IMG/VR virus record: IMGVR_UViG_3300035204_000693
Coordinates: 1-30,263 of that record
Source of the DNA: a virus
Strand: one strand, 5' to 3'
DNA length: 30,263 nt
Positions 4,304-28,547 of the stretch are shown here, piece after piece. Made by a program: the position numbers and the translations under genes. Each line of letters opens with the position of its first letter. The stretch's first letter is position 1. The notes beneath the pieces were generated by a model. The model was given only the letters and a program-made list of their open reading frames with translations. It was not told where the DNA came from and made no database searches.

Positions 4304-4344
4304 TTACCCTTTTTCCTTGTGAAAAATTACACTAATTTAGGCGG

Positions 4345-5295: not shown

Positions 5296-5853
5296 ATGTC
5301 GGTTTATAGCGCAGACGATTGGATAGCGGGGGAAGCATACTCCCAGCACACGATAATAAAGCGGGAAGCTGATCAGGTTGATCAGAGTCTTGGCTTACCC
5401 AGTCCAGCATACTTCTACTGTATTGCCAGTCATGATAATGTTAGCACCAAACCAGAAGTCGATGCCACAAACTGGGCTGGATATGGAACTGCTGCTGATT
5501 CTAGTAAAAGGCCAAAGTTCTTATGGACGCCTTCATACGGGGTAACAAATACAATCTCACCACGGACTAGATCAATAAAACTGGGAGACGGGTATGAACA
5601 AAGAATGGCTGACGGAATAAATACTGTACTTCTATCAGTCGGACTGACTTTTGAAACTAGAACCCAAGCCGAAACCGAGGCTATATCTCATTTTCTCCAC
5701 CAAAGAGGGGGTCATGAAACTTTCCTTTTCACCCCGCTACCGCCATACGATAAAGAAAAACTTTTTTTAGCAAGAGAGTGGAATAGCACTTATAACTTCT
5801 TTGATAATTATAGTGTGTCGGTATCATTCGAAGAATTGCCACTTATTTCTTAA
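5296..5853 (+). CDS. gpM-like minor tail protein with an N-terminal carbohydrate-binding-like module
   Basis: Residues about 74-185 match the lambda gpM-type minor tail protein family (Phage_min_tail). The core words are LWTPSYG, IKLGDGYEQRMADGIN, a helix with FLHQRGGHETFLFTPLPP, and a final strand VSVSFEELP. In lambda, gpM is a distal tail-tip component that joins the tip complex near the tape measure end. Residues about 8-62 are extra: DDWIAGEAYSQHTIIK, then YFYCIASHDN...P..D..NW, resembling the CBM5/12-type fold of chitinases and fibre proteins (inferred). The ATG at 5296 follows AAGGAAAA, a good ribosome site. It is the first gene of the rightward distal-tail operon and lies 5 bases before the gpL-like gene. 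Confidence 0.85.
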   Translation: MSVYSADDWIAGEAYSQHTIIKREADQVDQSLGLPSPAYFYCIASHDNVSTKPEVDATNWAGYGTAADSSKRPKFLWTPSYGVTNTISPRTRSIKLGDGYEQRMADGINTVLLSVGLTFETRTQAETEAISHFLHQRGGHETFLFTPLPPYDKEKLFLAREWNSTYNFFDNYSVSVSFEELPLIS

Positions 5854-5858
5854 CGGTT

Positions 5859-7691: not shown

Positions 7692-7692
7692 A

Positions 7693-8805
7693 ATGAACGA
7701 GTTCACCAAAGTTAGATTGCACGGAGATTTAGGTAAGGAAGTAGGCCCGGAATGGGAACTCGATGTTTCTACCGTTGGTGAAGCTATGAAAGCCGTAGAG
7801 TATCTTTCTAGAAGGAAACTTTTCAAGCATCTTGTAGATAGCAGTAAGCAAGATGTAAAATACCAAGTTCTGATTAATGAAAAACTGATCACCTACAAGA
7901 ACGGGAATATAGATGAAGAGAATTTAGCGGACGTAGAGCATTCTGAATTGGTGATGAAAATCAACGACCTCGAAACAATCGACGTTGTACCAGTTCTGGA
8001 AGGTTCTGGATGTTTGCTTGCGGGTACTAAAATCTCTATGGCTGATGGCTCCAAAAAGAATATCGAGGATGTCCTCAAGGGAGACATGGTTGTGTCTTAC
8101 AACGAAAAAGATGGTTCCTTGTGTGAATCAAAAGTATTGAAGACATTTAGTCACCCAGAGACAGAGGGGTATCTAACCATTAACAACCAAATAAAGTTAA
8201 CCGACAATCATCCAGTATATGTTGTTGGTCGTGGTTGGATTAGCGCAGGAGTATTAGAAATAGGTGATATACTTAAGTGTGAAAATGGCGAGGAAAAACC
8301 AGTAGAGCATATCGAACAGAGTAGCGAATTAGTTACTACTTTTAATATAGAAGTCGAGGATCACCATAACTATTTTGCTGATGAATACCTAGTACACAAT
8401 AAGGGGTTTCTGGGCATAATACTAGGGGCAGCGTTGATGTTTGCAGCATTCATACCGGGCTTAAACGTATACCTCGCAACTGCTCTATTTGTAGCTGGTG
8501 CTGGTCTGCTCGCAGCGGGAATCATGACTATGCTTGCGAAGCCTCCCGTAATGGAGCCTCCGAAAGATATTGAGATAAAAGGAGCTACGTCTTACCTATT
8601 TTCGAATATTGTTAATACTAACAAAGAGGGTAATCCTGTCCCCGTCTGCTATGGAAGATTGAGAATTGGGTCATACGTACTTGAATCTACATATGACTCG
8701 TACAACGTAGAGGCGCACGAAACCCCAACAAATAGCGAACAAATATCGACAATTGATTCGACTGTGACAGTTATCAACCCAGCGACAGAGGTTGTTCACA
8801 CATAA
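7693..8805 (+). CDS. gpI-like tail assembly protein interrupted by a Hint/intein-like domain
   Basis: This 370-residue protein has three parts. Residues 1-104 resemble the N-terminal ubiquitin-like domain of lambda gpI (VRLHGDLGKEVG..., a helix, and ...VVPVLEGSG). Residues 107-236 are a Hint (intein-like) domain. From 237 the gpI sequence resumes with a Gly/hydrophobic stretch (FLGIILGAALMFAAF), a second hydrophobic segment and PPKDIEIKGATSYLFSNIVNT, a typical gpI ending that leads into gpJ. Extein +1 is Lys (VHN|K), so normal splicing through a side-chain nucleophile is not expected; cleavage is more likely. The gene starts 1 base after the gpK-like stop, and its own stop overlaps the gpJ-like start (TAATG). 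Confidence 0.87.
   Translation: MNEFTKVRLHGDLGKEVGPEWELDVSTVGEAMKAVEYLSRRKLFKHLVDSSKQDVKYQVLINEKLITYKNGNIDEENLADVEHSELVMKINDLETIDVVPVLEGSGCLLAGTKISMADGSKKNIEDVLKGDMVVSYNEKDGSLCESKVLKTFSHPETEGYLTINNQIKLTDNHPVYVVGRGWISAGVLEIGDILKCENGEEKPVEHIEQSSELVTTFNIEVEDHHNYFADEYLVHNKGFLGIILGAALMFAAFIPGLNVYLATALFVAGAGLLAAGIMTMLAKPPVMEPPKDIEIKGATSYLFSNIVNTNKEGNPVPVCYGRLRIGSYVLESTYDSYNVEAHETPTNSEQISTIDSTVTVINPATEVVHT
8011..8400 (+). other. Hint (intein / bacterial-intein-like) domain in the gpI-like protein
   Basis: This covers residues 107-236, about 130 residues, which is too short for a homing endonuclease, so it is a mini-intein-like unit. Block A begins CLLAGTKISMADGS with nucleophile C107. Block B is TDNHPVYV with the conserved T-x-x-H. 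Block F is FNIEVEDHHNYFADEYLVHN, ending with the conserved His-Asn pair (N236). The next residue is Lys, not Cys, Ser or Thr. That is unlike a classical intein and closer to A-type bacterial-intein-like domains, which favour N- or C-terminal cleavage. Confidence 0.88.
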
Positions 8806-11800
8806 TGAAAAATTACATCCCACATAGACCATTTAGATATCATGGGGAAATAATTTCCTTCAAAGAAGAAGTGCCAGTTGCCCTATCTGCAACCAAAGCC
8901 AACCGAATTCCTGACGAGGCAGACGAGGGAATAACCGAGCAGAAAACTAGAGATGGCTCAAGTATAGATAGAGCAATATCTATATCTGAGAACAGGGTAA
9001 TAGATTTAATTTGTGAGGGAGAGATTGAAGGTTTAGTCGAATCAGAATACGTAGGAGAGGGGACCGATGGAAATGTTGGTTGGACTAAAGTAAGGGAAAA
9101 ACTGTTTGCAGAAGTTGGGCTTCAGGGGGGCTCTAGTGGAGTTAGGTGGCTACCATCAGTACTATGGAATGAGCTACCTATCTTAACAAAACAATCGACA
9201 CCCAAACTTAATTACCAACAGGTAGACGTAGTTTACGGTAAAGGTGGTCCAGATGGCTCTGACGGCCTTGGTATAAACGGGGAACTAACAATTAACAGAG
9301 GTGTAGGAGAAAGACTCCGTGGCGGTGGAGAAGACAACGAAACATTCGCGAAGAAGTACAGAATTAACAACGTGAGATGTAAGGGTGTTGCTGTAACAGT
9401 TAAATTTGTCCAACTCATGTATCAAGAAAAGGGTAACGAAGATGAGTATGGTGACATAAGAGATACGACTGTTGTTTATTCTACCTACTACAGAAAAGTC
9501 TACAACTACACTGGGGCAGGGGAGCAGGATTGGACGTTTCACGAGACCGTTAGTGTGACTGGTAAATTGAGTAGTGCTTTCCTGAAGCAAACCCAAATAA
9601 TGTTCGCTAACGTTCCTGACATAAACGAAGAAGGATTTGTGGGATGGGAAGTAAAAGTAGTAAGAACAACCGCAGATACACTATCAACTACAGTTCGAAA
9701 TACGACTTATGTAGACAGCATAGCTGAAATTTACGGAGACATTTACTCTTACCCACACTCCGCTATCGTTCAGCAGAAATTTAGCTCAGAGTTTTTCCAA
9801 AGAATACCTGACAGGCAATTTGATGTAAGAGGAATTAAGGTCAGAGTACCAGCGGATTACAACCCCATAGTTAAAAGCTATGGAAATGCATACAAGGGTA
9901 TAGCCAACCCATATTGGAAAGGAAACTTTAAAGACGAAAAAGAGTGGACAGATAATCCAGCTTGGGTTTTTTACGACATCCTAACAAATAAGAGATACGG
10001 TCTGGGTAAGCACTTAGAACAAGAAGCAATAGACAAATGGACTCTTTACGACATTGCACAATATTGCGACACCTTAGTCCCCGATGGGTATGGAGGTAGC
10101 GAGCCAAGGTTCACATGCAACGCTCTTATTTCGAGTAGAGACGACGCGCATAAAGTTGTAAATGACTTGGCTAGTGTTTTTAGGGGGATAACTTACTACG
10201 CTGGAAATACTATATTTGCCTCGCAAGATAGGGGAGGGAAAACTCCAGTAGTGTCATTCACAAACGCAAACGTTGAGAACGGAGATTTTACCTACTCTAC
10301 AAGCTCAAAAAAATCTAGACACACAGTTTGTATTGTTAAATATAGGGACGCTAGAGATAACTACAGACAGAAAGTCGAATACGTAGAGGATGTTGACGGA
10401 ATAAGAAAACACGGGATTCGTGAATTAGAAATAGCTGGGGTTGGCGTTACGTCTAGGGGGCAAGCGCAAAGATTTGGAAAGTGGGCTTTGTTTTCTGAGC
10501 AAACCGATGTCGAGACATGCAGCTTCATGACTGGTCTTGAGGCTGTAGTACTAAGACCCGGAGATGTAATTAACATCTCGGATGCGAATAGAAGCACCAA
10601 GAGGTACGGTGGAAGAACTTTCTCGATAGATAGCCTCGGAAGATCAGTTGTTTTAGACACCGACGTTCCGCTTTCAACTCTCCCTGAAGCTACTTACCAA
10701 ATACAAATCATGACGCCAACGTTCCAATATGACACTACAATAGTAGAGTCAGACGACGGAACTGGTTCCGGTGGGATAAACGCATCAGATATACCCAATA
10801 TAAGAAGGTCGCAGATTCAAACTGTAGATTTCACGGGGGCCAATGTCTCTAAGGAAACTGGCAGCGACGGAATAGTAAGAACAAAAATAGCTCTTCCATC
10901 TTACCTTAACGTAACTAATTACGACACAGAAGGAATACGGGGAAATGGAAGTGGGCTTGTGTGGATGATTCAACCAAGAGACGTTGGGGCGGTTTCTTGG
11001 CAGGAAGCAGAATTAGAAAAGCGTTTTGAAAGCTATAAAATTCTGAACATAGAGGAAAAGGAATCTAACAAGTACGCTATTACTACACTTGAATACAACG
11101 AAGATAAATTCGCTAGGATAGACGGAACAGACGGGTTCGATACTGATCCTACCATTGGTGATGTCGAACCACCAGTAGGATGTGTCCTAACCACTAATCA
11201 TTTGACTGAAAACTCGGTCGAGGTTAACTACCAAATAATTCCCGGAAACTTAAGGGATGTATATACTTATCAGGTCTATGTCAAATACGGATCAGATTGG
11301 ACTGCTACTGATTTCGCTGAGACGGACCCAAGCGCAACGGGGCCATTAGACACGATTCCAGATTCTAGATATTTTTACCAGAGCTTAAGTATAGCCTCTC
11401 AAAATGGAGTGTATTTCCCTACGCAAAATGGCAGATATTACTTTAGGGTTTATACAGCTAATAGACTAGGTATAGCGAGTATCACACACGCAGAAGGAAG
11501 GTGGACAGACGGTGGGGGAGTAAACAGGGGATACATAGAGATACAGGGCATTAACCCAATGCACGACGTAAGAATTAAGGCTCTTACCCTATCTACTTCT
11601 GACGTATTATCTTCTGAGGAACTCGCTGCTGGTACAACCTATCAAAGAACCCACGATTTTGTTGAGCCATCTTTCAGTTGGGAAATGGATGTGGCTGGAA
11701 CTAACCCTCACGTTTTATTCGACTATAGACTAACAATCAGGCCCCCTTCATACGGGAATAATCCAAGCCTCACTGTCCTTGGCACGATAGATTTGACAGG

Positions 11801-13241
11801 AATGTCATCCAATCATTTAAGCTACATCTATGAGGTTAGGAAGCAGATAGAAATTGCTAATGCTAACAACGATATGCCTTATAGAGACTATGATCTCGTT
11901 GTAGAAGCAATAGAACCAAATACAGGTGAATCTTCCGCTGGCACATTCACAACTTCTGGAGCATCGAATCCAGTCGGATACGATATTTTACGTGTCACAA
12001 ACCCATCTATATCAGGATGGGAACTTACTCCATTTGACTTAGTGGACACATGCTTAAACGGTGGTTCGTCCGCCCCAACGTATTGTTCTGACCAATGGTT
12101 AACAGATGATGGCGATGTAAAGGTTTTATACACGCGAACGGTAGGTGATAAAGACCTTGATGCGATGATGGGAGTTTTGTTCATCTCTATGGAACAATTT
12201 GATCCAAACGCAATTGATTTAACTGATGACAATGTTTTAGCAGATAACGAGATCGCTAGAGTTGTATTCTACAATAACACAAATAACCCCAAAGGTATTG
12301 ATGTGCCGATGGTTAACTGGAAGCATCCTAATGCTTATATTTGTGTCGGTTACGGTGATGAATTAGATAGAGCACTTTATCAGGCTTCTCAAGAAGAAGA
12401 CGATTTCCCAGCCGACATGAGTCCTGTCGGCCAAATGACTGCAAACGTTACTAATGTAGTCTATGTCGAACAAAGGACAACCCCTTTACCACCGCATATC
12501 TCACAAGGAGCTTGGAAAGGCTTAATGATTGGCCATTGGCAGGGGTGGGGCGCGGGACAGAATGACAACCCCGCAATTCCGACAGTAAATACTCAGGTAG
12601 GCATGAGCGTACCTTCATTTGCCATATATAGACCAATGGGGCATTACTGGGACCATCACGGTAACGGATGGGGACACCCGAAAGCAGTTCGGGAGGCTGG
12701 ACCAAGACACGGTACTGCTCCACCTCAACACTGGTACTGGGAAAATCATCCAAATTATGATTTCCGAGGACCGGACGGTGGCCATACTTGCCTTAGGTTA
12801 GCTAATCCGGGGTATGGCTATAGAGGCTATGGGTGGACTTGGGAATACATTCTTGTTATGAAGTTTGCCTTCGATACTGCTCAACTAAGCAATTCCTATT
12901 CGGTAATTTGGAACTGGGACTCCACTATGATTGGAACAAATGGACAATCATCACAACTTAAAACAGAAGAGGTACAAATCGGTTCCATAGGTCAACTTCT
13001 TGAAGAAGACGAAGTAGACCCACCAGAAGGACTAACTTACCCATTGCAATTTCACAGAAATCATTGGAATCATGATTGTAACTGCTGCGGTGGATGGTCA
13101 AGTCAAGGACATATGACATATAACTCTATGGCAATGAAGGCATACAAAGCCAAGGATGGCGTTGTTTTGAAAATGCAAGTTAGTGACGCAGACAAGTGGC
13201 TTTTCGAAAACGGAAAAAGATTTATGATTGGAATTATATAA
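8805..13241 (+). CDS. gpJ-like tail tip / host specificity protein (1478 aa)
   Basis: This is the central tip protein that receives the gpI/gpK-assembled complex and usually determines receptor binding. Early residues contain the gpJ signature SENRVIDLICEGEIEGLVE. Residues about 412-480 match the Phage-tail_3 region (YDIAQYCDTLVPDGYGG, CNALISSRDDAHKVVNDLASVF). A strand-rich segment near 780-900 resembles fibronectin type III repeats. The last 220 residues differ from lambda gpJ. They are rich in His, Trp and Gly (GHYWDHHGNGWGHP near 1280) and include a Cys cluster at 1425, 1427 and 1428, so this may be the variable receptor-binding end. The start ATG overlaps the gpI-like stop. The stop is followed 10 bases later by the next gene. 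Confidence 0.9.
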   Translation: MKNYIPHRPFRYHGEIISFKEEVPVALSATKANRIPDEADEGITEQKTRDGSSIDRAISISENRVIDLICEGEIEGLVESEYVGEGTDGNVGWTKVREKLFAEVGLQGGSSGVRWLPSVLWNELPILTKQSTPKLNYQQVDVVYGKGGPDGSDGLGINGELTINRGVGERLRGGGEDNETFAKKYRINNVRCKGVAVTVKFVQLMYQEKGNEDEYGDIRDTTVVYSTYYRKVYNYTGAGEQDWTFHETVSVTGKLSSAFLKQTQIMFANVPDINEEGFVGWEVKVVRTTADTLSTTVRNTTYVDSIAEIYGDIYSYPHSAIVQQKFSSEFFQRIPDRQFDVRGIKVRVPADYNPIVKSYGNAYKGIANPYWKGNFKDEKEWTDNPAWVFYDILTNKRYGLGKHLEQEAIDKWTLYDIAQYCDTLVPDGYGGSEPRFTCNALISSRDDAHKVVNDLASVFRGITYYAGNTIFASQDRGGKTPVVSFTNANVENGDFTYSTSSKKSRHTVCIVKYRDARDNYRQKVEYVEDVDGIRKHGIRELEIAGVGVTSRGQAQRFGKWALFSEQTDVETCSFMTGLEAVVLRPGDVINISDANRSTKRYGGRTFSIDSLGRSVVLDTDVPLSTLPEATYQIQIMTPTFQYDTTIVESDDGTGSGGINASDIPNIRRSQIQTVDFTGANVSKETGSDGIVRTKIALPSYLNVTNYDTEGIRGNGSGLVWMIQPRDVGAVSWQEAELEKRFESYKILNIEEKESNKYAITTLEYNEDKFARIDGTDGFDTDPTIGDVEPPVGCVLTTNHLTENSVEVNYQIIPGNLRDVYTYQVYVKYGSDWTATDFAETDPSATGPLDTIPDSRYFYQSLSIASQNGVYFPTQNGRYYFRVYTANRLGIASITHAEGRWTDGGGVNRGYIEIQGINPMHDVRIKALTLSTSDVLSSEELAAGTTYQRTHDFVEPSFSWEMDVAGTNPHVLFDYRLTIRPPSYGNNPSLTVLGTIDLTGMSSNHLSYIYEVRKQIEIANANNDMPYRDYDLVVEAIEPNTGESSAGTFTTSGASNPVGYDILRVTNPSISGWELTPFDLVDTCLNGGSSAPTYCSDQWLTDDGDVKVLYTRTVGDKDLDAMMGVLFISMEQFDPNAIDLTDDNVLADNEIARVVFYNNTNNPKGIDVPMVNWKHPNAYICVGYGDELDRALYQASQEEDDFPADMSPVGQMTANVTNVVYVEQRTTPLPPHISQGAWKGLMIGHWQGWGAGQNDNPAIPTVNTQVGMSVPSFAIYRPMGHYWDHHGNGWGHPKAVREAGPRHGTAPPQHWYWENHPNYDFRGPDGGHTCLRLANPGYGYRGYGWTWEYILVMKFAFDTAQLSNSYSVIWNWDSTMIGTNGQSSQLKTEEVQIGSIGQLLEEDEVDPPEGLTYPLQFHRNHWNHDCNCCGGWSSQGHMTYNSMAMKAYKAKDGVVLKMQVSDADKWLFENGKRFMIGII

Positions 13242-13251
13242 GGCTGCTGAC

Positions 13252-14118: not shown

Positions 14119-14135
14119 TTTAAGAAGGAAAAAAA

Positions 14136-15092: not shown

Positions 15093-18000
15093 CTAGTCTG
15101 ACAGAGTACCGCCCGGTCTTTGCTCCCTGTGGATAACCTCCATGATCTTGGCCTCCATCATTAGGCTCATTCTCTTGTTGTCTTCCTTCTCTTTTCGGTC
15201 ATCTCTCTGTTCGGACTCTGTTCCTCTACTATCCACATCTTGACTTTCGCTCGATACTTCGGTGCTAGTCCCCTTCTTGCTAACGTTTACTGTTATGCTA
15301 ATGTTATTGGAGATATTTCTTGTAGCTCCACCTCCCTGCACTTTTGCACCGTCATCCCTCGGTGTTTTTGCTGCGTCTTGACTAGCTTCTTCCAGTGAGT
15401 GTAGTTTTTCTACTGCTCCAAGGAGAGCCACTAAATTATCATTCATCGCGTCAAAACCGCCACCAAGGCCCGAACCTCCACTTGGTGCGTTGGCTCCTTC
15501 GCCAACTAATCCTCCAGAAGCATAACCACGTATTCTGCCACCGCCAAGAGCACTATAGAACCCAATCATATCCCCTCGGTTTAATGCTTCCGCTGCGTCA
15601 GTGCCGATATTTCTAACTGTGTCTTTGTTAAGTACAAATTCACCATTTGACAAACGAACGGCTTCTGAATCTCCACCATACACGCTGCCTCCTCTGGCGA
15701 ATGCCTTCTCACCGCCAGCAGCCAGATTTGAGAAGGCTGGTGTTGCCATCGATAAAGCTGCATCAGGAACATTAGGTTGCCCCATCAGTTGGTCAATCGG
15801 TGTCATGCGACTGAAGTTAGAGAGACCTAAACTTTGGGCTCCTCCAAACATACCTCCACCAGCAAAACCTCTAATCATTCCACCTCGACGGAAGAATGGA
15901 ACTTCACCCTTGTGGTCTCCACCCCAAAAACCTTTAGTGAAAATTCCTTCGCTACCTAGAGAATGTTTCCACGCCTTCCCCGGAAAACCTTTAACGCCAG
16001 ATTTAAATCCCTTCCACCCTTCTTTAAGCTTTTGACCAGCGGTTTTCTCTACGGGTGCTTGCCAAGAAAATGGGTCTTCTCCAGCAGGAACTTTTTTGTA
16101 GTGATCTAGTAGAGATTGAAGTCTTTGTTTCTCTCCGGGAATTTCGATTGCGTCAAGTTGGGTTTGGGTTTGGCCAATTAAACCTTGTTGACGTTGAAAG
16201 TTTGCGAGTTTTGTTTTGTGCTTTGGATCAGATAGTACCTCGTACACTCGCTTGTCGAACATCTTCCGCTGTTTTGCCATTTCTTGAGCTTTGGCCTTCT
16301 GCTCGAACTTGCCAACAGCATGAGCGGTTAAGCCTCCGATTCCGCCCATGATTGCTCCTTCTGTCCCTCCCATGAGAGAGCCGAAGCCAGCACCAACAGC
16401 CATCTTACCTCCCGCTGAGTTTAGGAATCTTCCCAACCCTGTCGTGTTGCCAACGCTCTTTGCGTAACCAGAGGTTATAGTCATGGCAGCATTTATGTAA
16501 GCAGCTTTCATCCTTTGCTTCTGCTGCTTTTCAAATTGGTCCATTTTTTCTTTGTTACGCTTTTCCCTTTGATGCTCGTTGTGTTTATGGGTATAGAAAG
16601 CCTCTTCTCGTTGAAATTTTTTCTGGTTTTGCGGGTTGTTTGTATCTGTTTGACCTACCACTGACAACATTGGGTCAGCGTTATAGGTAAATGTTTTCGG
16701 TCTCTTAGGATCATCGTAATCGATTCTGTTCCTTACTACCGCAGCAAATGAACCACCTATGGAAGCCTTGTTGTTTATGTTCTCCAGAAAACCGTAACCC
16801 AACCTTTTAGCGGAGCTTGCTTTTACTACGAATTCTCCGGGGCTAAGTAACCCTGCAACACTATCAGATGTTTCTGAACCCGGCCCCTTTACTCTACCCC
16901 CTCTAGAAAATCCTTTTACTAATCCTCCTTGTGAGAATTTTTGCCCAAACATGTAAGACATAAAGTTCTCAGAACCAAAGTCTAAAGCTCTATTAAGTAT
17001 GTTATCGAGAATGGAATTAGCCATATCAGCGAACGCTTCTTTAGAGCTTTTTGTTCCACTGGCAAACTCTCTGAAAGCTTGGCTAAAGCCCTGCCTGAAT
17101 GTTACCGCTGTACTCTCAACCATGTCCTTAAGGTCTTGCCAATCATCCGTCGAGTTTCTCGCGAATTGAGAAAGGAATGTTCCCCTCATGTCACCGAAGC
17201 CATAAGTCCCTTGGTTAACTTTTCCTTGGTAATACTGACTTTGAGTACCCCTGTATCCTCTTCCAGATATCTCGCCCCGTTCCATCTTCATACGCGCAGC
17301 AGTTGCTTTAAATTCGTTTTGTAAAGCTTTGGTTGCTTGAGTCACGGAAAGATTTCTCTCATTAACGATCTCAAGTATCTTACTCGCCCTAGACATCGTT
17401 TCATTATAGAACTCTTGCTTGGTCGCAGCATTGTCAGCAGCTTCAGTTTGTAGGTCGAGTGCTGATGCTGACTCCTCCCAAGAACCAGCCAACTGACTCA
17501 TACTAAGACGACCACCTGAAATCTTCTCTCCCATCGGGCCAGTCATCTCTTTTCCTTTAAGTTTAGGAGCTAACATTCCCCATGCGTCCCCTTGGGCTCC
17601 GGTCAAGAAGTTCCGCATCCCCTCTGCCCGGAGTGCTGCTACTGCTGCTGCTGCTTTTGCTTCTTTTTCAATTTGCGCTCGCCTTTTATCACTCTCTCCC
17701 GCTCGCAGATTCGCTCTCTTACCAGAGCCTTGTTGGTACGCTAATCCTATTGCCATTCTTTCTGCATTAAGTGCTCTGTCTGCTGGTCTCGCTACTAACT
17801 GTTTGTCAATTTCTAGTCTTCTGGCCTCAAGCTTATCCAGAGCCTCTGCAACTTCTTTTAATGTGTTAGCTTCGTTTACTGCTCCGTAATGGCCAAATCC
17901 ACCTCGCACATTTTCGTTGAATTTTTCGTTGTAATCTCTCCTCTCTTGCTCCATTTTTTCATAGAAAGGTTTAGCCCATTCTTTTACATTTCCGTCTTCG

Positions 18001-21000
18001 TCTCTGTATTTCTCTGGGTGCTCCAACATATCTTTCTCTAAATTGTCGCCAACCCCTTCAAGTACATCGCCTACTTTTCGGGCTCCATCTTGCAAACTGA
18101 GTAAAGCTTTATTTACCTTTGGCGCAGCATCAATAATTACATCAGCCAGAAAGTCTGTTCCTTGGCCATGTAATTTTTGGATGCTTTGAATGGGCGATGA
18201 AACAAATCCCCCCAGTCTTTGTCCCCAACCGCCACCACTTGGTCCACCTTCCTGCATTTTTCTCGGTGCTCCACCGAAATTAAGCGTGGACAGTATTTGC
18301 TGACCTCTTCTAATGTCTCCACCTCCAATTGCTGCTACGGCGTTTCTGTTCAGCATGTACTCGCCGTCTTCGGCCATCACTAGGTTACTCTTCCTGTCTC
18401 CTATATTTCTTCCAGTAAAGGCCATTCCTGATCTTGCGCCAATCATTCCACCTTGCTGGAATTTTGGCTGAGTTTTCCACTTTGTGTCACGGTCCATCTG
18501 TTGGATTGTAGGTATGTCAGAAATTGATGGACCGTATTGGGGTGGAGCAGTGTAGCCAGTATTGTAACTTATACCGTGAGTCCTGCCTGTCCCATAGTAA
18601 TTTCCTACTGCTCCTTGAGTATTAATCCTGCCAGCAGCAGCCCCTATGGCTCCAGTTAACTGACTAAGGACTGTATTAAGATTAGCAGTTTCAGTCCTCA
18701 AAGCGGTATTCGCTTCATTCATGATTTTGATTTGCTGGTCGTACTCAGAAGAAAGACCTTCTGATTGCCCTCCTTGCGTCAAATCAAATACAAGCTTCTG
18801 GAGTTCTTCCATTGCTTTGATTTCGGCTCCATACTGTGCGGTTCCTGCTTTATCGTCCTCATCCATTTCTCTAGCTAAAGTGGACATGTTCGATACATAA
18901 TCACTAAGGGCCACATCCAACCGCTTGTTGGCGTAAATGTTTTCGCCTTTGTTTGTGATGCGACCCATGTATTCACTTAAGTTCTCCAGCAGTCGATGTT
19001 GTCGTGCTTCGAGCATAGCCATTGGTGTCTGCTCGGTAACCGCTCCGAAGGGCCATTGCTTAGGCAATGCTCCGCCCTGCGTCATATGGGGTGAACCCGC
19101 GCCCATCACTCCAATTAGACCTTGGAGTCTCCTAACGTTCCCTAAGGTTTTTGTCCTCGCTGCGTCTGCCCTGAATCCCGCTTCGCTTGCTTTCTGTTGG
19201 TGTTGGAAGATGTTTCCCCTCAACATCGTTGCTTGAGCAAGGCCACCTTGTTGCCTAAGAGATGCACCTATTGCGCTAGTAAAACCGTTCTTTATACTGG
19301 TTCCGAGAGCTATGAGCCCCGGATTAGTTGCTCCTTGCCCATTAGGCCAAACAGTTTTCATAGCAGCTACAAACCCAGCCATTTGCTGTTGGGTTTGCAT
19401 TTGGTTTTCCCTCGCTATATCTACTCCTAATCGTACCAACTCATTTTTTACTTCTTCAAGTTTTTGAGGTAGTACTTCCTTTAAGCTGGACTGTATTTGG
19501 AACGAGGCAGCGTCCAAAGTCTTTTCGCTCGTTGGGTCTTTCATCCATTCAGGAACATTGACGCCAAGTCTCGTTTCTGCTTCTTGTGCTGCCCTAGACA
19601 TCTGCATTGCTCTTCCAGCAACAGCAGTACCCATTAGGGCTGCTGGAATTTTTTGCCCCATATCGTTCTTAAGAAATTCAGCAATTCCGAGTGCTGACCT
19701 ACCTCTTTGAATCGTTGGCTCGATACTGCTTCTTGATGACTCTATTGCGTGAGCTAAATTATCTATCCTCTCTATGGTCGAGTGCGTCCCCTTCGTGAAA
19801 TCTTCTAGACCGCCTAAGTGCTGAAGCATTTGGGTGTGTTGCAGCATTAACTCACTGTATCTATTGTTCTGTTCTAAAAGTCTTACTTGTTGCTCAGTTG
19901 CTTGAACTTGCTTAATCATTTCTACAGAAAAAGACTCAGATTCCCTATTCATGCCGTGGAGAATTTGATTTCTTAAAGCGGAGTTATCCTTTAAGGCAGC
20001 GAGTTGAGCGTTGTTATCTATTTGATACTCTACAAACTCCTTGAGTTGTTCGCCATTCTTTGCTCCTTGCTGTATCTGTTTATCGACCATAGCAACAAGA
20101 CTAGCTACAGCTTGAGTCTCTGGTCTCGTTTTCTCTGCTTTCATTTGAAGCTCGGTTTTCCTGTTTTCATCACCCTCGATTGCCGAACTATAAGCCCTGC
20201 TTAAATTTGCACTGGACTTCCCTGCTGCCCCTGTTAGAATGCCCAGAATCCCCTGTTTATAACCCGAATCCAATGCTTGCCTAGAGGTAGTATCTTTAGA
20301 CAATATTCCAGCCATGTTTACTGCGCTTTGTAAGCCTAATCCCTGCTCGCTACCTAAGAACGGTTGAAGCAATTGCATCTGGAAACCCATCTCAGCAGTT
20401 TTTAAGCCTCTCTTGTTCGCGAGTCTGCCCGATTTAATAGACTCCCTTCCAGAGGTTAAGGTCTTCAGGCTCTCGATTTCATTTTTTAGTTCTTGTAAAG
20501 ACTCGCCCATCGCATCAGTAAGCTCTTCATGCGCTTTCGCTAAATCTAAAGCATGTTTTTGCTGAGTTTTAATTAGATTTTCCTGAATTTTAGTAAACGC
20601 ATCGACCTCCATTGCTCCTCGAAGTGCATCCATTAGTGATTGTCCCATTGCTGTAATATCACCAACGTTCATGACGCTGAGGGATTCCCTATCTCCTCCC
20701 ATTGTTTCAAATGCATCTCTTATCGACCCCGCTTGCACGGCTGAGCCATATATGTTACCTTTAAGGGCGGGGGCATTGAATATACCAGTCAATGTATCAA
20801 GCATTTGTTGATTTTTTTTCTGGTCCGAAAAGTCCAGTGTGGTCATGTACTTATCGGAAAATCCTCCCAGTTTTTCTCTGCCTTCTTTTGACCCAATCAG
20901 AGCTTTTTGGGATAAGAGCAGCCTTTGCTCATTACCAGACTTGTCCCAGAATTCCGGTCCCATCGCAGCAGATTCCACATTGGCTAAATCTGATCTAAAA

Positions 21001-24000
21001 AATCTCGCCCTCGCCATCGCAGGACCAAGAATTGCACCGATAATTGGGATAAACGACTCTGGTTCCCAAGCATCATCTATAATAGCCCCCATCGTGGATT
21101 GCCTAGAGCCTTTATACTCTTTGTATATATCGGCTCTCTGTTGGGATACTTCAGCGTCTCTCTGAAGTCTTCTTTGGGCCTTGGCTCCTTCAGCTTGTAA
21201 AGCTTTCGGGTCATACATGCTGCTCATGATATTAGATCGCTCTGATTTCGGCACAGACATTAACGTCTCCATTACATCGGCTCTTCTTGCAGAGAGGTCG
21301 CTAGGCGAAACGTTGCCTGAGGTATCCAATAGAGCAGTTTGGTAATTTGTTAACGACATCGTGAATTGACCAATCCCATTGTTGAAGTCGTTTAGTGCTT
21401 TATTGGCTTGTTCAGCAGAAACTTGAAGTTCTGGCCCTCTATCGTAAAGTTTGTCGAAGTAAGAGTTCAATGCCATTGCTCCACCAGCAGCTAAACCAAC
21501 AGCAGCACCAATAGCTATTCCCGCTGGTCCGCCACTGCTACCTGTCATGCCACCTATCATCGCGCCCATCCCCGCCATTCCTAAAGCACTTACTGCACCA
21601 CCTGTAGCAGCAGCGTTTGCTCTCTGTTGACGATTTCCTTGTTGCATGTTTGCGCCTATCATGCTTCCAATCATCGGAGCACCGAAGGCTAGTGGCATTG
21701 CAAATCTGTTCATTCCTGCTAGAGCCCTAATTCCCATCCCTTTCATTCCCTTCGGGAGGGCTTTTCCTGTGAATGGGTCTTTCGGAGCCATAGCTCCTTT
21801 TGCCTCACCTTCCGCTACTTGTGCTGCTCCCAAATTCGCAGCAGCATGTCGTGCTCTTTGGCGTTCTTGCTTTGCTTGTCTTTTCGCTTGCTGCCTCGCT
21901 TGATCTCTCTCTCTTCTAGCGTCTGCTACTTTTTGGGCAGCGTTTGCTCTTTGTTGTTCAGCCCATGATAGAGGAGCCCCAGTGCTACCAGCATTAATCC
22001 ACGCTCTCATCGCATGACCAGCACCCGTGGCTGGCAGAGCACCACCTACGGGCATTCCTTTTGCACCGGAGCCTTTTAGGTCGTTGACCATTTTATCGAA
22101 ATTTTTAAATGCATTCTCTGCCACTCTGACGTTATGCGCTTCCTTGTTTAATACCTTTACTCGCGCTTTATTATTCTTATCGTTATCCCTGTTTTGGTTA
22201 TCATAAACAGATTGCGCTTCTTTAGTAGCTTTCTTGGCTTTGTCAAAAGCCTCCTGCATTAACTTTTTGTGCTCTGCGCCTTGTCCGGGTTGCATACCCA
22301 TAAAGCCCATAGCTATCATTCCCATCATCATACCCATGTCCATATCTCCACTTCCCGTGAAGAAGCTGGGTACATGTCCACCTGATTTTCCTTGGGAGGC
22401 CATTTTCTGGAGACCCATTCCTGTACTTCCTAAGGTAGAACGAGGTTGGCCCGCTGCTAGATGTTGATTGATTGCTGAAGAAAGACTTCCTTGCGAACTT
22501 GTATAGACTCCCGCCCCAACTCTTGGGTCGTATCCAACTCTCGGAGAACCGCCACCTCCACTCATTGAAATACCAAGTTTTTCTCCTGCAATAGCATTAC
22601 TCATTGGCGAGAAAGACGGAATGTGTCCGCCCGCAAACATATGAATATCAATATTTCCTGCTTGAGAACGAACATCCTCCCACGGTCTATGATTATATTT
22701 GCCAAGTTCTTGCTTGAATCTAAAGTGTCTTTCAAAAGGCGACGTAGTTTTAGATATAATTTCTGTTGGGCCACTTCTTATTGAGCCCAAGTCCACCACT
22801 TGAAAATTTCTATTTTGACCTTCTCCCTTCATAGAGTAGTCGAGAATCTTTTTTTCGAGTGAAGCACCGTCAAAGCCATAACCCGTTCCACCTTTGGCTA
22901 TTGCTCTGTCAACCATGGCATAGACATCATCCAAATCTCTCCACATGGCATTTCCGCCGTGCAAATCCCACAAATCAACGTTTGTGCTTTTTTTAATATT
23001 GTGAACACTAGTCTGGTAAGCTTTTCTAAATGCATTCTTGATAGCTTTTCGAGCTTCAAATGGATAATCCAGATAGCGAGGGGTGTCTTTTATATCTTTG
23101 AAAGCCCCTCTTGGGTCCATTGATTTCTTTATTGTTGCTCCAGAAAGAGGAAGGTAGGGGTTCATTCCCACTGGCAATCCCGGTATTGGCGCACCAACCT
23201 CAGCAAGGGCTTGAGCTAACACCGCCTCCCCTTCGGGAGCAATAAACCCACCATGCGGGCCACCCATGGGACCTTCTTGGCTTATACCCTTCCCCAGTGC
23301 TTTGTGCCCTCCTACTGCCAATTTATCAAAAGCAGCCAATCTCCAAGCTTCTTCGTAGGCGACCCCGCTGGACAATCGTTGAGGTGTAAATTTTCCTTTT
23401 TGTTTGTGTAAGGCTCCAAGAATTCCTGTCTGACTTCTACCTAGATTCCCTGTGTACCTCATGACTTCGTTCATGAGGATTTCTTTATCTACTCGCTGCA
23501 TGAGTTCAGAACTTTGGAACCCCCATCTACCCGCTTTAGAACCTAAGTCGGGAATACCCAATTCTTTATATTTTTTCCCAGCCATTCCTGTCCAATCTCT
23601 GGGTATTTTAACTACGTAGTCTGTTCCTTCGATTTTATATACTCTTCCGAACGCACTCTCTCCACCGACTTTTGTAAATGCATTTATACCCTTTTGTTGC
23701 ACCGCTTTCGCAATACCTAAGGTGTTAAGGTCTGCGCCCAAAGAAGCTTCTAGTGGCGTCATTTTTGTCCCCAAAAATCCGAGATCATGAGACTGTTTGT
23801 TTAGGTTACTAATAGATAATAAGTCTCCCTTCCCAGTTTGAGGCTTCGGAAGTGGGGGGAGCCCAATTTTCGCTGGCGCATTTTTCGGAATTGGAGGAAG
23901 GAATGGCGTTGATGCTGACACCGACTTAGCCCTTGATTCCTCCCACGATCCTCTATTTCGAGTACCCCCACCTACGGTTCGGACTCTTTGTTGAGCAGTT

Positions 24001-27000
24001 GGAACAAGCCATTCCCTGATGCTAACCATGTCCCCAATTTTCACGGCTTCGTGCAACTCTGGTAATTTTCTTCCGGTTCCCGCCAGACCCTTGCCTGTCT
24101 GTTTCGCTTGGTTTATTTTAATCAACAATAATTCTTTTTCGCGTTCAAGCCGTTGAGAAGGACGCCCCATCAATAAATTTGGTTGTATTTTTGATGCCCC
24201 TGCAACTTGGCTCTTGTGTTTCAGCAGTAAATATCTTTCAACCATCCATCTCAGGGGACCTTCTGGTATTGCAAATCCGGGGATTCCAGTTAATTCTCCA
24301 GAAGTTTTTGTGACATTCGTTCCTTTATAGCTGTTAAGGCCAAAAAGTGGACCAAACTGAGAAGGAGCCTCTCCTTTTTTCATAGAGTTTAATATGCTTC
24401 TCATTTTTGCAGTGTTAGAAGCTTTTAAAAAATCATCCATCCCAACTTTATCAGGATGTATTCGTTTAAAGTATTCGGCTGGGTTGGCATTCATTGGCAT
24501 CTTCATGAAATGTCCGGGGTCCACAACATGCATGTGACCACCTTCAGCCATCATCTTCAACAAATCAGTATCGTGTTGGAACAATGATTGTCCTCTGTCG
24601 GGGACTCCTCCGGTTCTCCTATAGTAATCAGCAGCCAACTTAACGCCCTTGTTAGATATCATTATGTTTTCATAATGAAGATCGTGAGGCATAAATGGAG
24701 TCTTTAATCCTGCGCCACCTGTCATGGCTTTAGTCTCCATGAACTTTGATGGCCATCTTTCCATCCAATTGTAAACTCTTTTGCCTATGCTATGTGCTAT
24801 TAAGGGATTCCCCCCTGTTTCCATAATGTGCTGCATCGCCTTTCTATGCGAATCTTTGACGGTGACGCCCTGAATCATGGGTTTTATAATTCCCGCTTGA
24901 GGAAGCAATCCGAGTGATGGAGTAACTGGATAACGCGACCCACTAAAGATTCCAGTCGGCACATCACCACCTCTGACCATTAGTCTTTTAACTTGATCTC
25001 TAACACTGGGGGGTAAGGAGCCCAAGCCTCCGATCATCGCTTGCTCTAAATAGTTCTTTCCGTGCTTACCTTCTTGAAAACCGGGCCGAAATTCTTTTCC
25101 TACGTGCGGGGCTGCTTTCTGTCCTCTCAACATACCAGCTAAAATAGAGCCCCTGTTTCTCCCCGCCCCGTGCATCTCAAACTCAGTCCCCGGCCCTGTT
25201 CCGCTACGACTGCCGAGTGATTTTGTATGGAATGCTTTTATTCCAAAAGGTAGTCCTTCCAACCCATAAAATGCGCCATCCACACCCTTACCTATTTTGA
25301 TAAGGTCATTCGGATTTGCTGTCTTAGCCCAGTTAGCAACACTTTTCATAGCTTCCGCTTGTTCTTTTCTCGACATCCCATAACCTATGTGACTCGGTAT
25401 GGTTGTCCTTATGCTGGCGAACGGCAGAGGTGAAAAATTTGGAACGTAAGGATCAATCCCGACTTGAGATATCGATGATTTCCTATGTTGTCTACCCGCT
25501 TGCGAATTTCTTGGTGGACTTATAAATGGCTGAGAAAATCCCGGCACATGCCTTACTCTTTCTGCGCCGTTGTAAGTCACCTTACCAAGACCGGGCATAG
25601 ACATTGTTTTTACTGGGCCAGCCTTGTACCCCCCCATCGCTGCTCCAATTCCTTCGGAGATAGCACCTCTTATGTTGAAGTTTGGAATGTGCCCCTCTGA
25701 GCGTGTCGCTCCCGGCATTGATGACCGCATTGATGCCGATCTTGATACTCCAGCAAGGACATGAGCCGACGCTCCAGCAGCAGCCAAATTTGCTACTTGT
25801 TTTGATATTTGGGCTCTTATGACTAGTTCTTCTCTCAGCCCCCTTAGTATTTGGTTTTGAACTTGAGCATAGTTCATTCCCTTGGAAACCATGTCTGCAA
25901 TTAACCTTGGGTTGTCAGCTAACCTAGCGTGAATCTGTTCTTGAAGCTTAGCTTGAGTTGCAGCCTGAGAATTTAAGCCCAACATGCTACTTACCGAAGT
26001 TTTAAGGAATCCGAAAAATTGACCCATTAACTTGGTTACTAGAGCCATTCCCACGGCAATTCCCGGACCCGATAGTGCCTTCCCTATTCCCTCAAATAAT
26101 CCAGCTAAGGTTTTCCCAATACCCGAATCCGCATCTAAACTTGAGAACCATTTAAATATGGTGTTAACCCCTTTAAATAAACCCTCTATAGCTGGGCCAA
26201 CCGCTGATTTACCTATCGCAGCAGCAAACTCTTTGAAGTTCTGCACTGTTTCATTTATGAGAGCAGCAAGCGTTTTATTTAGGTCCTCATTTCTTCGTAT
26301 GGCTTGGTCTGTCGTCTGATTGGCAACTTTCAGTGCGTTATTGTATATAGAGTAGTTACCACTTAAGTCACGAATAGCAGCTTTAAGAATGTTGACCTGA
26401 TACAAGCCACCCATCAATTGAGTTATCTGAGACTTCTGCGCGTGAGCCAGCGTATCGTATTTTTTGGATAGGGCGTCTAGTATCTGAATGGTGGATTTCA
26501 TTTGTCCACCCTGTTTTGTCGTTTTAATCCCTATCTGCTCCAACATTTCCAAAGTTCTTGGTCTTTGGATTTTGGTAAAAATAGATTTAAATGCATTACC
26601 AATTACAGCACCACCACGAGCGGTATTTTGTTGTGCTGCGGTAACGATAGCAATCAGTTGATTGAAGCTTACCCCTGCTTCTTTAGCTGTGCTACCAGCA
26701 CGTTTAAGTGCTTCAGCTAAGTCTGCTGAACTAACCGCAAATGCAGCATCAACATTCGCCATTCGGTTTACAACTGCGGTAGAGTTTAACCCAGCTTCGT
26801 TAAATCCGTTGATAGCAGCAGTGAGAGATTCAACGGCAGACTTTGCGTCCATACCCGTCAGCCTGACGAGTATCATTGCATCTTTAACTCTTCTTAGCGA
26901 TTGCTCTGTTCCTAAACCTTGACGAGATAACTCGGTCATGGCAGTTGCAACCGTGCGGAAAGTTTGACCTGTTTGACCAGCGATCTGGAACAATTTATGC

Positions 27001-27398
27001 CCCATCTTCTCCATCCCTGAAGTTGTCTCGCCTAAAATTACATTAATGTCTTTGAGGCTTTTTTCTACATCGATTGTTGACTTAACAACCTCGCTCATCG
27101 CTCTAGCAACGCCGTATACAACACCAGCAGATGCGCCAAAGGCTAAAACACGAGCGTGAGAAGCATTTAGTGCTTTTGTGAATTCGTTGGCATTTGCAGT
27201 AGCTGCTGACAAGCCAGAGCCAAGCGCACCCGCTGCGTGTGCTCCTCCTCTCGCTCCTCCAGCCCCACCACCAATGTTGACATTTATTCTTCCAGCAGAC
27301 CTTTGGGCTGCTTGTACAGCCCTCCTAACATCCGCTGTCAGTCTTCTGGTATCAACCTTTGCGGTAACCGTAAATGTTGCAGCACTTCTAGTAGACAT
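15093..27398 (-). CDS. Giant tape measure protein with two embedded kinase-like domains (4101 aa)
   Basis: This tape measure protein sets tail length and is ejected during DNA entry. Residues about 85-440 resemble the TP901-type tape measure core (DVEKSLKDINVILGETTSG). Two kinase-like domains follow at about 690-1000 and 1235-1575. Near 1720-1860 there are charged coiled-coil stretches, and at about 1893-1975 Gly/Ala-rich hydrophobic segments that could insert in a membrane. Long helical regions continue to about 3400. Residues 3412-3487 resemble the lambda gpH C-terminal region (FADMANSILDNILNRALDFG). Three GE(F/Y)-type motifs occur near 3020, 3520 and 3930, and the end ITVNVSKKG...HREQRPGG is typical of tape measures. 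The ATG at 27398 has GGAATAAGG just upstream. At about 0.15 nm per residue a fully extended helix would reach roughly 600 nm; the globular parts make a shorter tail likely. Confidence 0.95.
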   Translation of the reverse strand: MSTRSAATFTVTAKVDTRRLTADVRRAVQAAQRSAGRINVNIGGGAGGARGGAHAAGALGSGLSAATANANEFTKALNASHARVLAFGASAGVVYGVARAMSEVVKSTIDVEKSLKDINVILGETTSGMEKMGHKLFQIAGQTGQTFRTVATAMTELSRQGLGTEQSLRRVKDAMILVRLTGMDAKSAVESLTAAINGFNEAGLNSTAVVNRMANVDAAFAVSSADLAEALKRAGSTAKEAGVSFNQLIAIVTAAQQNTARGGAVIGNAFKSIFTKIQRPRTLEMLEQIGIKTTKQGGQMKSTIQILDALSKKYDTLAHAQKSQITQLMGGLYQVNILKAAIRDLSGNYSIYNNALKVANQTTDQAIRRNEDLNKTLAALINETVQNFKEFAAAIGKSAVGPAIEGLFKGVNTIFKWFSSLDADSGIGKTLAGLFEGIGKALSGPGIAVGMALVTKLMGQFFGFLKTSVSSMLGLNSQAATQAKLQEQIHARLADNPRLIADMVSKGMNYAQVQNQILRGLREELVIRAQISKQVANLAAAGASAHVLAGVSRSASMRSSMPGATRSEGHIPNFNIRGAISEGIGAAMGGYKAGPVKTMSMPGLGKVTYNGAERVRHVPGFSQPFISPPRNSQAGRQHRKSSISQVGIDPYVPNFSPLPFASIRTTIPSHIGYGMSRKEQAEAMKSVANWAKTANPNDLIKIGKGVDGAFYGLEGLPFGIKAFHTKSLGSRSGTGPGTEFEMHGAGRNRGSILAGMLRGQKAAPHVGKEFRPGFQEGKHGKNYLEQAMIGGLGSLPPSVRDQVKRLMVRGGDVPTGIFSGSRYPVTPSLGLLPQAGIIKPMIQGVTVKDSHRKAMQHIMETGGNPLIAHSIGKRVYNWMERWPSKFMETKAMTGGAGLKTPFMPHDLHYENIMISNKGVKLAADYYRRTGGVPDRGQSLFQHDTDLLKMMAEGGHMHVVDPGHFMKMPMNANPAEYFKRIHPDKVGMDDFLKASNTAKMRSILNSMKKGEAPSQFGPLFGLNSYKGTNVTKTSGELTGIPGFAIPEGPLRWMVERYLLLKHKSQVAGASKIQPNLLMGRPSQRLEREKELLLIKINQAKQTGKGLAGTGRKLPELHEAVKIGDMVSIREWLVPTAQQRVRTVGGGTRNRGSWEESRAKSVSASTPFLPPIPKNAPAKIGLPPLPKPQTGKGDLLSISNLNKQSHDLGFLGTKMTPLEASLGADLNTLGIAKAVQQKGINAFTKVGGESAFGRVYKIEGTDYVVKIPRDWTGMAGKKYKELGIPDLGSKAGRWGFQSSELMQRVDKEILMNEVMRYTGNLGRSQTGILGALHKQKGKFTPQRLSSGVAYEEAWRLAAFDKLAVGGHKALGKGISQEGPMGGPHGGFIAPEGEAVLAQALAEVGAPIPGLPVGMNPYLPLSGATIKKSMDPRGAFKDIKDTPRYLDYPFEARKAIKNAFRKAYQTSVHNIKKSTNVDLWDLHGGNAMWRDLDDVYAMVDRAIAKGGTGYGFDGASLEKKILDYSMKGEGQNRNFQVVDLGSIRSGPTEIISKTTSPFERHFRFKQELGKYNHRPWEDVRSQAGNIDIHMFAGGHIPSFSPMSNAIAGEKLGISMSGGGGSPRVGYDPRVGAGVYTSSQGSLSSAINQHLAAGQPRSTLGSTGMGLQKMASQGKSGGHVPSFFTGSGDMDMGMMMGMIAMGFMGMQPGQGAEHKKLMQEAFDKAKKATKEAQSVYDNQNRDNDKNNKARVKVLNKEAHNVRVAENAFKNFDKMVNDLKGSGAKGMPVGGALPATGAGHAMRAWINAGSTGAPLSWAEQQRANAAQKVADARRERDQARQQAKRQAKQERQRARHAAANLGAAQVAEGEAKGAMAPKDPFTGKALPKGMKGMGIRALAGMNRFAMPLAFGAPMIGSMIGANMQQGNRQQRANAAATGGAVSALGMAGMGAMIGGMTGSSGGPAGIAIGAAVGLAAGGAMALNSYFDKLYDRGPELQVSAEQANKALNDFNNGIGQFTMSLTNYQTALLDTSGNVSPSDLSARRADVMETLMSVPKSERSNIMSSMYDPKALQAEGAKAQRRLQRDAEVSQQRADIYKEYKGSRQSTMGAIIDDAWEPESFIPIIGAILGPAMARARFFRSDLANVESAAMGPEFWDKSGNEQRLLLSQKALIGSKEGREKLGGFSDKYMTTLDFSDQKKNQQMLDTLTGIFNAPALKGNIYGSAVQAGSIRDAFETMGGDRESLSVMNVGDITAMGQSLMDALRGAMEVDAFTKIQENLIKTQQKHALDLAKAHEELTDAMGESLQELKNEIESLKTLTSGRESIKSGRLANKRGLKTAEMGFQMQLLQPFLGSEQGLGLQSAVNMAGILSKDTTSRQALDSGYKQGILGILTGAAGKSSANLSRAYSSAIEGDENRKTELQMKAEKTRPETQAVASLVAMVDKQIQQGAKNGEQLKEFVEYQIDNNAQLAALKDNSALRNQILHGMNRESESFSVEMIKQVQATEQQVRLLEQNNRYSELMLQHTQMLQHLGGLEDFTKGTHSTIERIDNLAHAIESSRSSIEPTIQRGRSALGIAEFLKNDMGQKIPAALMGTAVAGRAMQMSRAAQEAETRLGVNVPEWMKDPTSEKTLDAASFQIQSSLKEVLPQKLEEVKNELVRLGVDIARENQMQTQQQMAGFVAAMKTVWPNGQGATNPGLIALGTSIKNGFTSAIGASLRQQGGLAQATMLRGNIFQHQQKASEAGFRADAARTKTLGNVRRLQGLIGVMGAGSPHMTQGGALPKQWPFGAVTEQTPMAMLEARQHRLLENLSEYMGRITNKGENIYANKRLDVALSDYVSNMSTLAREMDEDDKAGTAQYGAEIKAMEELQKLVFDLTQGGQSEGLSSEYDQQIKIMNEANTALRTETANLNTVLSQLTGAIGAAAGRINTQGAVGNYYGTGRTHGISYNTGYTAPPQYGPSISDIPTIQQMDRDTKWKTQPKFQQGGMIGARSGMAFTGRNIGDRKSNLVMAEDGEYMLNRNAVAAIGGGDIRRGQQILSTLNFGGAPRKMQEGGPSGGGWGQRLGGFVSSPIQSIQKLHGQGTDFLADVIIDAAPKVNKALLSLQDGARKVGDVLEGVGDNLEKDMLEHPEKYRDEDGNVKEWAKPFYEKMEQERRDYNEKFNENVRGGFGHYGAVNEANTLKEVAEALDKLEARRLEIDKQLVARPADRALNAERMAIGLAYQQGSGKRANLRAGESDKRRAQIEKEAKAAAAVAALRAEGMRNFLTGAQGDAWGMLAPKLKGKEMTGPMGEKISGGRLSMSQLAGSWEESASALDLQTEAADNAATKQEFYNETMSRASKILEIVNERNLSVTQATKALQNEFKATAARMKMERGEISGRGYRGTQSQYYQGKVNQGTYGFGDMRGTFLSQFARNSTDDWQDLKDMVESTAVTFRQGFSQAFREFASGTKSSKEAFADMANSILDNILNRALDFGSENFMSYMFGQKFSQGGLVKGFSRGGRVKGPGSETSDSVAGLLSPGEFVVKASSAKRLGYGFLENINNKASIGGSFAAVVRNRIDYDDPKRPKTFTYNADPMLSVVGQTDTNNPQNQKKFQREEAFYTHKHNEHQREKRNKEKMDQFEKQQKQRMKAAYINAAMTITSGYAKSVGNTTGLGRFLNSAGGKMAVGAGFGSLMGGTEGAIMGGIGGLTAHAVGKFEQKAKAQEMAKQRKMFDKRVYEVLSDPKHKTKLANFQRQQGLIGQTQTQLDAIEIPGEKQRLQSLLDHYKKVPAGEDPFSWQAPVEKTAGQKLKEGWKGFKSGVKGFPGKAWKHSLGSEGIFTKGFWGGDHKGEVPFFRRGGMIRGFAGGGMFGGAQSLGLSNFSRMTPIDQLMGQPNVPDAALSMATPAFSNLAAGGEKAFARGGSVYGGDSEAVRLSNGEFVLNKDTVRNIGTDAAEALNRGDMIGFYSALGGGRIRGYASGGLVGEGANAPSGGSGLGGGFDAMNDNLVALLGAVEKLHSLEEASQDAAKTPRDDGAKVQGGGATRNISNNISITVNVSKKGTSTEVSSESQDVDSRGTESEQRDDRKEKEDNKRMSLMMEAKIMEVIHREQRPGGTLSD
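22674..23696 (-). other. Protein-kinase-like domain 2 inside the tape measure protein
   Basis: Residues about 1235-1575. The glycine loop is GGESAFGRVYKI (G1245-G1251), followed by YVVKIPRDW (K1264), and a C-helix candidate EILMNEVMRY with Glu 1306 or 1311. The catalytic loop is DLWDLHGGNAM (D1478, N1483), and the metal-binding segment is FQVVDLGSI (D1536). The DLHxxN form is typical of the aminoglycoside phosphotransferase and related kinase families. It is a clearer match than domain 1, with which it shares the same motif order. Confidence 0.8.
24399..25331 (-). other. Protein-kinase-like domain 1 inside the tape measure protein
   Basis: Residues about 690-1000. The order of motifs matches the kinase/aminoglycoside-phosphotransferase fold. 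There is a glycine loop GKGVDGAFYG (703-712), an ATP-binding lysine in GIKAF (K721), a catalytic loop PHDLHYENIMI (D906, N911), and a metal-binding aspartate in VVDPG (D960). The 49-residue gap between N911 and D960 is longer than usual and suggests an insertion. All key residues are present, so activity is possible. Boundaries are estimates and the substrate is unknown. Confidence 0.72.
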
Positions 27399-28494: not shown

Positions 28495-28501
28495 AAAAAA
28501 A

Positions 28502-28523: not shown

Positions 28524-28547
28524 ATTTGTTTTGTAGTTAACTAATAT

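Follow-up and report, generated by a model that had tools for sequence, protein, structure and literature searches.

We analysed the IMG/VR viral record IMGVR_UViG_3300035204_000693 in full (30,263 bases; hereafter the window), which comes from an uncultured tailed phage, probably one with a long, non-contractile tail. Judged by its homology, a 4101-amino-acid (aa) open reading frame (ORF) of the window is a tape measure protein, and two stretches within it carry ordered motifs of the protein kinase/aminoglycoside phosphotransferase (APH) superfamily. The reading that we favour, with moderate confidence, is that of a modular tape measure with an exchangeable slot, here holding two divergent phosphotransferases of the protein kinase/APH type that would be ejected and act in the host. 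The kinase fold and activity, the ejection, the refolding and the target are parts of this reading that we infer. The conserved slot with its repeated separator motif, which an earlier sequence-only reading of the window had missed, is a more general finding than the kinase pair.

Two kinase-like domains within a tape measure protein

The N-terminal part of the ORF identified the carrier. PF10145 matched residues 141-329 (E 1.6e-28), and eleven tape measure PHROGs matched the N-terminus, the best being phrog_4211 (8.9e-56). These matches bore out the claim of the sequence-only reading that the two domains are embedded in a tape measure protein. Since lambda-like tail-tip genes lie nearby, the tape measure belongs to a tailed phage.

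The motifs named in that reading were all present at the residues given, as two ordered sets in one open frame (Table 1). Each domain has a glycine-rich loop, a lysine, a D(x4)N catalytic loop and a metal-binding aspartate, in the order that characterizes the protein kinase/APH fold. The domain limits first proposed (residues 680-1010 and 1225-1585) were refined to about 657-1060 and 1206-1588, within a slot spanning residues 650-1590. A loose half-signature (D[LIVAM]H..N, then hhD at a kinase-like distance) was present at both places and in 0 of 3000 shuffled versions; because the pattern was composed after the motifs were known, this comparison is a sanity check only.

We then compared the window with a 46-kb relative, IMGVR_UViG_3300031605_000005 (L002), whose tape measure aligned through the whole region (46.6% over 2828 columns). 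Domain 1 was 55% identical between the two phages and retained K721, DLHxxN and HVVDPGHF. Domain 2 was 39% identical and retained ESAFGR, K1264, D1478, HGGN and (V/L)VD(L/I)GS. Thus, the catalytic residues of both domains are conserved in a homologous tape measure. The motif windows were also better conserved than random windows of the same size, which reached the observed identity in 111 of 20,000 draws for domain 1 and 262 of 20,000 for domain 2. In domain 1, the nonsynonymous divergence (dN) was 0.40 and the synonymous divergence (dS) was saturated at about 2.5; for domain 2, dS was saturated and is given without a value.

Three comparisons point weakly to a kinase. First, the only match of domain 1 among 38,880 PHROGs was phrog_18305, annotated 'kinase' (E 0.013; E 0.049 for L002), and in both phages the alignment fell at the catalytic loop. 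Second, the four domains of the window and L002 aligned at the catalytic loop to an APH profile built from bacterial sequences, with 0, 0, 0 and 19 shuffles per 1000 scoring as high. Third, a profile comparison of domain 1 with domain 2 aligned the catalytic loop alone (E 0.089). The likeness of the two domains is limited to this loop, so an origin of the pair by duplication was not supported and we set it aside. The Pkinase profile scored the domains no better than shuffles. The Kinase-PolyVal family (PF18762) did not match the window domains up to E 10, and members of Kinase-PolyVal and phrog_18305, sought for profile comparison, were not found in the genomes searched. A domain 2 profile run against 296 genomes of one bacterial order gave no match, in a search that had no positive control.

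Several results weigh against the kinase assignment. The histidine of the canonical HxD motif is absent, its place being taken by PHD in domain 1 and LWD in domain 2; some members of the protein kinase/APH superfamily also lack it. The distance from the catalytic-loop asparagine to the metal-binding aspartate is about 50 residues in both domains (N911-D960 and N1483-D1536), which is longer than in typical kinases. The domains had no kinase family match in Pfam (up to E 10), NCBIfam or PADLOC, and searches of the PDB with one or two domain sequences returned chance matches only. AlphaFold models from two-row alignments were too poor to use, with predicted confidence (pLDDT) values of 36 and 44, and Foldseek found nothing meaningful with them. 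Several unrelated tape measure segments reached or exceeded the APH-profile scores of the kinase domains. Finally, L002 was the only further relative with the kinase pair in searches of viral contigs and phage records. On balance, motif order, spacing and conservation in L002 upheld the kinase-like character claimed by the sequence-only reading; the fold stays putative, with unusable models and no significant profile match. As a description of these sequences, the label 'kinase-like' is well motivated for both domains.

The same results bear on the strongest alternative, in which the segment is ejected but its domains are pseudokinases, or another nucleotide- or protein-binding fold, and transfer no phosphate. 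The absence of profile and fold support, the missing HxD histidine in both domains and the fast evolution of domain 2 (39% identity) would all suit such domains. However, the lysine, the catalytic aspartate, the asparagine and the metal-binding aspartate have been kept in both phages amid diverging surroundings, and we regard this alternative as unlikely, if the most serious of those considered.

The slot, its contents and its proposed delivery

Searches with the N-terminal domain gave 28 and 80 viral loci, together with 17 in assembled genomes of bacteria. The N-terminal domains of these relatives were mostly 42-76% identical to that of the window. The relatives in assembled genomes fell in Flavobacteriales, Neomarinimicrobiota, Halobacteriovorax and Verrucomicrobiales bins, where contigs can be misassigned; marine flavobacteria are a candidate group of hosts for phages with such tape measures. 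For a motif census we used 95 non-redundant tape measures with a length of 1500 aa or more. The motif G(F/Y/H/M/L)(V/I/L)P(N/S/G)F, with the core form G(F/Y/H)(I/V)PNF, was present in 408 copies, compared with 0.2 expected from shuffles. At least two copies occurred in 93 of the 95 proteins, and just two copies lay within the first 500 residues. Outside the tape measure ORFs, 2.3 Mb translated in six frames contained one chance-like copy.

The common layout consists of the N-terminal domain, a motif at about residue 545, some 80 aa, a motif at about 627, a segment of about 280-340 aa, a motif at about 905, some 75 aa, a motif at about 985 and then the tape. The window fits this layout, with motifs at residues 569, 650, 1591 and 1674 and a segment of about 940 aa that contains the kinase pair and is flanked by two constant modules, each with a PNF-type motif at its start and end. 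Read across these sequences, the separator motifs break up what follows the N-terminal domain into segments that are interchangeable. The PNF-type motif may keep neighbouring segments independent of one another, bind a chaperone or signal folding, mark a site of processing, or be a seam of recombination. Because the motif is confined to the tape measure, we gave less weight to the idea that it is the site of a general virion protease.

The slot of the window holds the kinase pair only, and the slots of relatives hold other enzyme-like domains. In L014, positions 13463-14887 within the tape measure ORF encode an apparent CCA-type (CCA-adding) tRNA nucleotidyltransferase (phrog_2244, 8.5e-58; PolyA_pol, 53.6 bits against a cut-off of 23). 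The L094 slot contains a GNAT acetyltransferase domain (30.6 bits, cut-off 20.7), beside which P-loop-like, HExxH and HAD-like segments in the same ORF are motif leads found by eye. The L083 slot matched a GHKL-type ATPase just below the cut-off (24.2 bits against 25) and also has an HExxH motif, a lead found by eye, and the L109 slot gave a weak cytidyltransferase match (E 0.0014). In a common segment (alignment A5; L120, L008, L010, L016 and others), G, F, E, D and K were invariant across 18 sequences, most of which share 16-29% identity with the first one; a D that is nearly invariant, at the second position ahead of the K, completes a PD-(D/E)XK pattern. A PDB search with the profile of this presumed nuclease did not confirm the PD-(D/E)XK fold; BsaWI endonuclease was among the weak matches. 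From its residue pattern, the segment may be a nuclease that is taken into the host.

The substrates that kinases, acetyltransferases and tRNA nucleotidyltransferases require lie in the cytosol, and cytoplasmic delivery is therefore the simplest common explanation of the slot. Enzymes that use tRNA, acetyl-CoA or NTPs would make sense only in the cytoplasm. The different enzyme-like domains in the slots of related phages suggest that this family delivers enzymes into the cell alongside its DNA. The tape measure occupies the tail lumen, and the point made by the sequence-only reading, that a folded kinase is too wide for that lumen, stands. The tape measure exits with the DNA (reviewed in PMC13277306), and that of lambda associates with the inner-membrane ManYZ during injection (PMC13190303). 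In the mechanism that we propose, the slot segment would be packed in an extended form within the tail tube, would leave the virion together with the tape measure during DNA entry and would fold in the host cytoplasm. The refolded domains would then phosphorylate a host protein or a small molecule in the first minutes of infection, and this could favour take-over of the cell or blunt its defence. Entry of catalytic cargo, also suggested by the sequence-only reading, gained independent support from the recognizable enzymes in the slots of relatives (the CCA-type nucleotidyltransferase, GNAT and likely nucleases). The entry step itself would follow from the identity of the carrier. We also considered a broader proposition, for which we see the case as evenly balanced: that a large phage lineage, so far uncultured, has in its tape measure a modular vehicle for delivery, whose PNF-bounded slot takes different cytosol-acting enzymes (kinases, tRNA nucleotidyltransferase, acetyltransferase, nucleases and proteases) that are threaded through the tail and refold as first weapons.

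The contents of the relatives' slots also bear on a possible role in the virion. The domains might remain in the particle or function while the virion is assembled, for instance in regulating the folding of the tape measure or its chaperones in the tail, without ever reaching the host. The carrier is a structural tail protein, and kinases could work in the producing cell. However, no shared assembly role explains why unrelated enzymes (a tRNA nucleotidyltransferase and an acetyltransferase) occupy the slot in relatives. Action during tail assembly, the other role offered by the sequence-only reading, gained no support, and we consider it improbable. We think it slightly less probable still that, in the producing cell, proteolytic cleavage at the PNF-type motifs releases the slot content, and that the cargo works in that cell or is packaged separately. 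A regular motif at every slot boundary, a matrixin-type metallopeptidase gene in the window (327-3464) and the processing of tape measures in some phages are consistent with this, but a motif confined to the tape measure would be odd for a general virion protease site. That the motifs are coincidental in fast-evolving filler and that there is no kinase at all, as the failure of all profile and fold tests would allow, is similarly improbable in view of the two complete ordered motif sets, their conservation in L002, the half-signature missing from the shuffles and the calibrated APH-profile alignment.

Features and neighbouring genes of the window

Table 1. Positions of the tape measure protein, its parts and the tail-tip genes in the window.
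Feature	Residues	Positions	Strand	Remarks
Tape measure protein	1-4101	15093..27398	-	Single unbroken ORF, 4101 aa
Conserved N-terminal tape measure domain	1-545	25764..27398	-	Includes PF10145
Constant module A, GHIPNF (569-574) to PYVPNF (650-655)	569-655	25434..25694	-	Module also in relatives
Kinase-like domain 1	657-1060	24219..25430	-	Motifs, L002 conservation, phrog_18305, APH-profile alignment
Domain 1 glycine-rich loop GKGVDGAFYG	703-712	25263..25292	-
Domain 1 candidate ATP lysine	K721	25236..25238	-	Invariant in L002
Domain 1 catalytic loop DLHYEN (D906, N911)	906-911	24666..24683	-	DLHAGN in L002
Domain 1 metal-binding strand VVDPG (D960)	958-962	24513..24527	-	HVVDPGHF invariant in L002
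Proline-rich interdomain linker	1160-1205	23784..23921	-	Shared with L002
Kinase-like domain 2	1206-1588	22635..23783	-	Motifs, L002 identity, APH-profile catalytic-loop alignment
Domain 2 glycine-rich loop GGESAFG	1245-1251	23646..23666	-	ESAFGR invariant in L002
Domain 2 candidate ATP lysine	K1264	23607..23609	-	Invariant in L002
Domain 2 catalytic loop DLHGGN (D1478, N1483)	1478-1483	22950..22967	-	DAHGGN in L002
Domain 2 metal-binding strand VVDLGS (D1536)	1534-1539	22782..22799	-	LVDIGS in L002
Constant module B, GHIPSF (1591-1596) to GHVPSF (1674-1679)	1591-1679	22362..22628	-	74% residues identical in L002
Remaining tape and C-terminal part	1680-4101	15093..22361	-	C-terminal homology to L006, L007, L023
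Lambda-like tail-tip genes (L/K/I/J-type)		5296..13241	+	Minor tail proteins, tail assembly protein, central fibre J

The tail module of the window is split: the tail-tip genes (5296-15053, plus strand) converge on the tape measure gene (15093-27398, minus strand). A long minus-strand ORF occupies the equivalent place in L041 (G004). Two ORFs of 360 and 344 aa (27427-29582, minus strand) lie upstream of the tape measure gene, in the usual position of tail assembly chaperones, and family searches with them gave no match. The lambda I-like tail assembly protein (7693-8805, plus strand) contains, in frame, a domain of the Hint/intein type (about residues 107-238; PT-HINT, 59.2 bits), which ends in HN followed by K, not by C, S or T; orthologues of this protein in L030, L032 and L033 aligned over the full length. 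The ORF at 327-3464 (minus strand) encodes a 1045-aa protein with a matrixin-type (M10) metallopeptidase domain and HELGHSLGLGH at residue 828. It is a possible virion or processing protease, and a protein 66% identical to it is encoded in L033. In a related phage contig (L039), positions 901-14262 encode a protein of 4453 aa that is repetitive and probably beta-rich, and after it a tail-fibre-like protein of 1530 aa.

Relation to known systems

Tape measures with lysozyme or peptidase domains are known, and several Bacillus and Staphylococcus proteins that matched the N-terminal domain are annotated as lytic transglycosylase or lysostaphin. These resemble the window protein in having an enzyme domain within a tape measure. 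However, they act on the cell wall outside the cytoplasm, whereas kinases, GNATs and CCA enzymes need substrates in the cytosol. T4 Alt, the T7 protein kinase and the N4 virion RNA polymerase are likewise enzymes of phages that alter host proteins or accompany the DNA into the cell, but none of them is known to belong to a tape measure, and the T7 kinase is produced after infection.

The polyvalent proteins of phages and plasmids (Iyer et al. 2017, PMC5512222) are a closer parallel. They are multidomain phage proteins, proposed to be co-injected with the DNA, that combine kinases (including the distinctive Pfam group Kinase-PolyVal), GNATs, nucleotidyltransferases, ADP-ribosyltransferases and peptidases; T4 Alt and the T7 kinase are discussed there as well. 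Polyvalent-type mixing of disparate enzymes in one polypeptide may occur in L094, with its above-cut-off GNAT and the segments noted by eye. What sets the window protein apart from the polyvalent proteins is that a tape measure acts as the carrier, in which the slot is fixed and a separator motif recurs; the window domains also do not match Kinase-PolyVal. Tape measures are not mentioned in the passages of that paper that we consulted.

Tme of Streptomyces davawensis (PMC11126660) and the Sle1-type effectors of Actinobacteria (PMC13277306) also use a tape measure-related carrier of swappable functional domains. However, these effectors belong to bacterial contractile injection systems, whereas the carrier here is a phage tape measure with different enzymes. 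In addition, the functional domain of Sle1 is C-terminal, and the segment in the window is internal (residues 650-1590 of 4101). A study of mosaicism in phage proteins noted mosaicism of tape measure sequences and did not confirm recent cases (PMC10684548).

No record in the 50,697 phage genomes searched matched a typical member in its slot region; the matches in these genomes end at the N-terminal tape measure domain, at about 25-30% identity. Our literature search, whose coverage left out most subscription journals and preprints, found neither kinases nor swappable cytosolic enzymes described for the tape measures of phages.

With the PNF-type separator, there is a simple way to locate such cargo, and to set its limits, in metagenomic sequences. 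Should the content of the slot enter the cytoplasm, tape measures would count, beside proteins packaged in the capsid, among the carriers of first-minute effectors, and the slot would list host targets and counter-defences in a form readable from sequence. The proposed route, if true, would also reveal how a narrow tail tube copes with enzymes as cargo.

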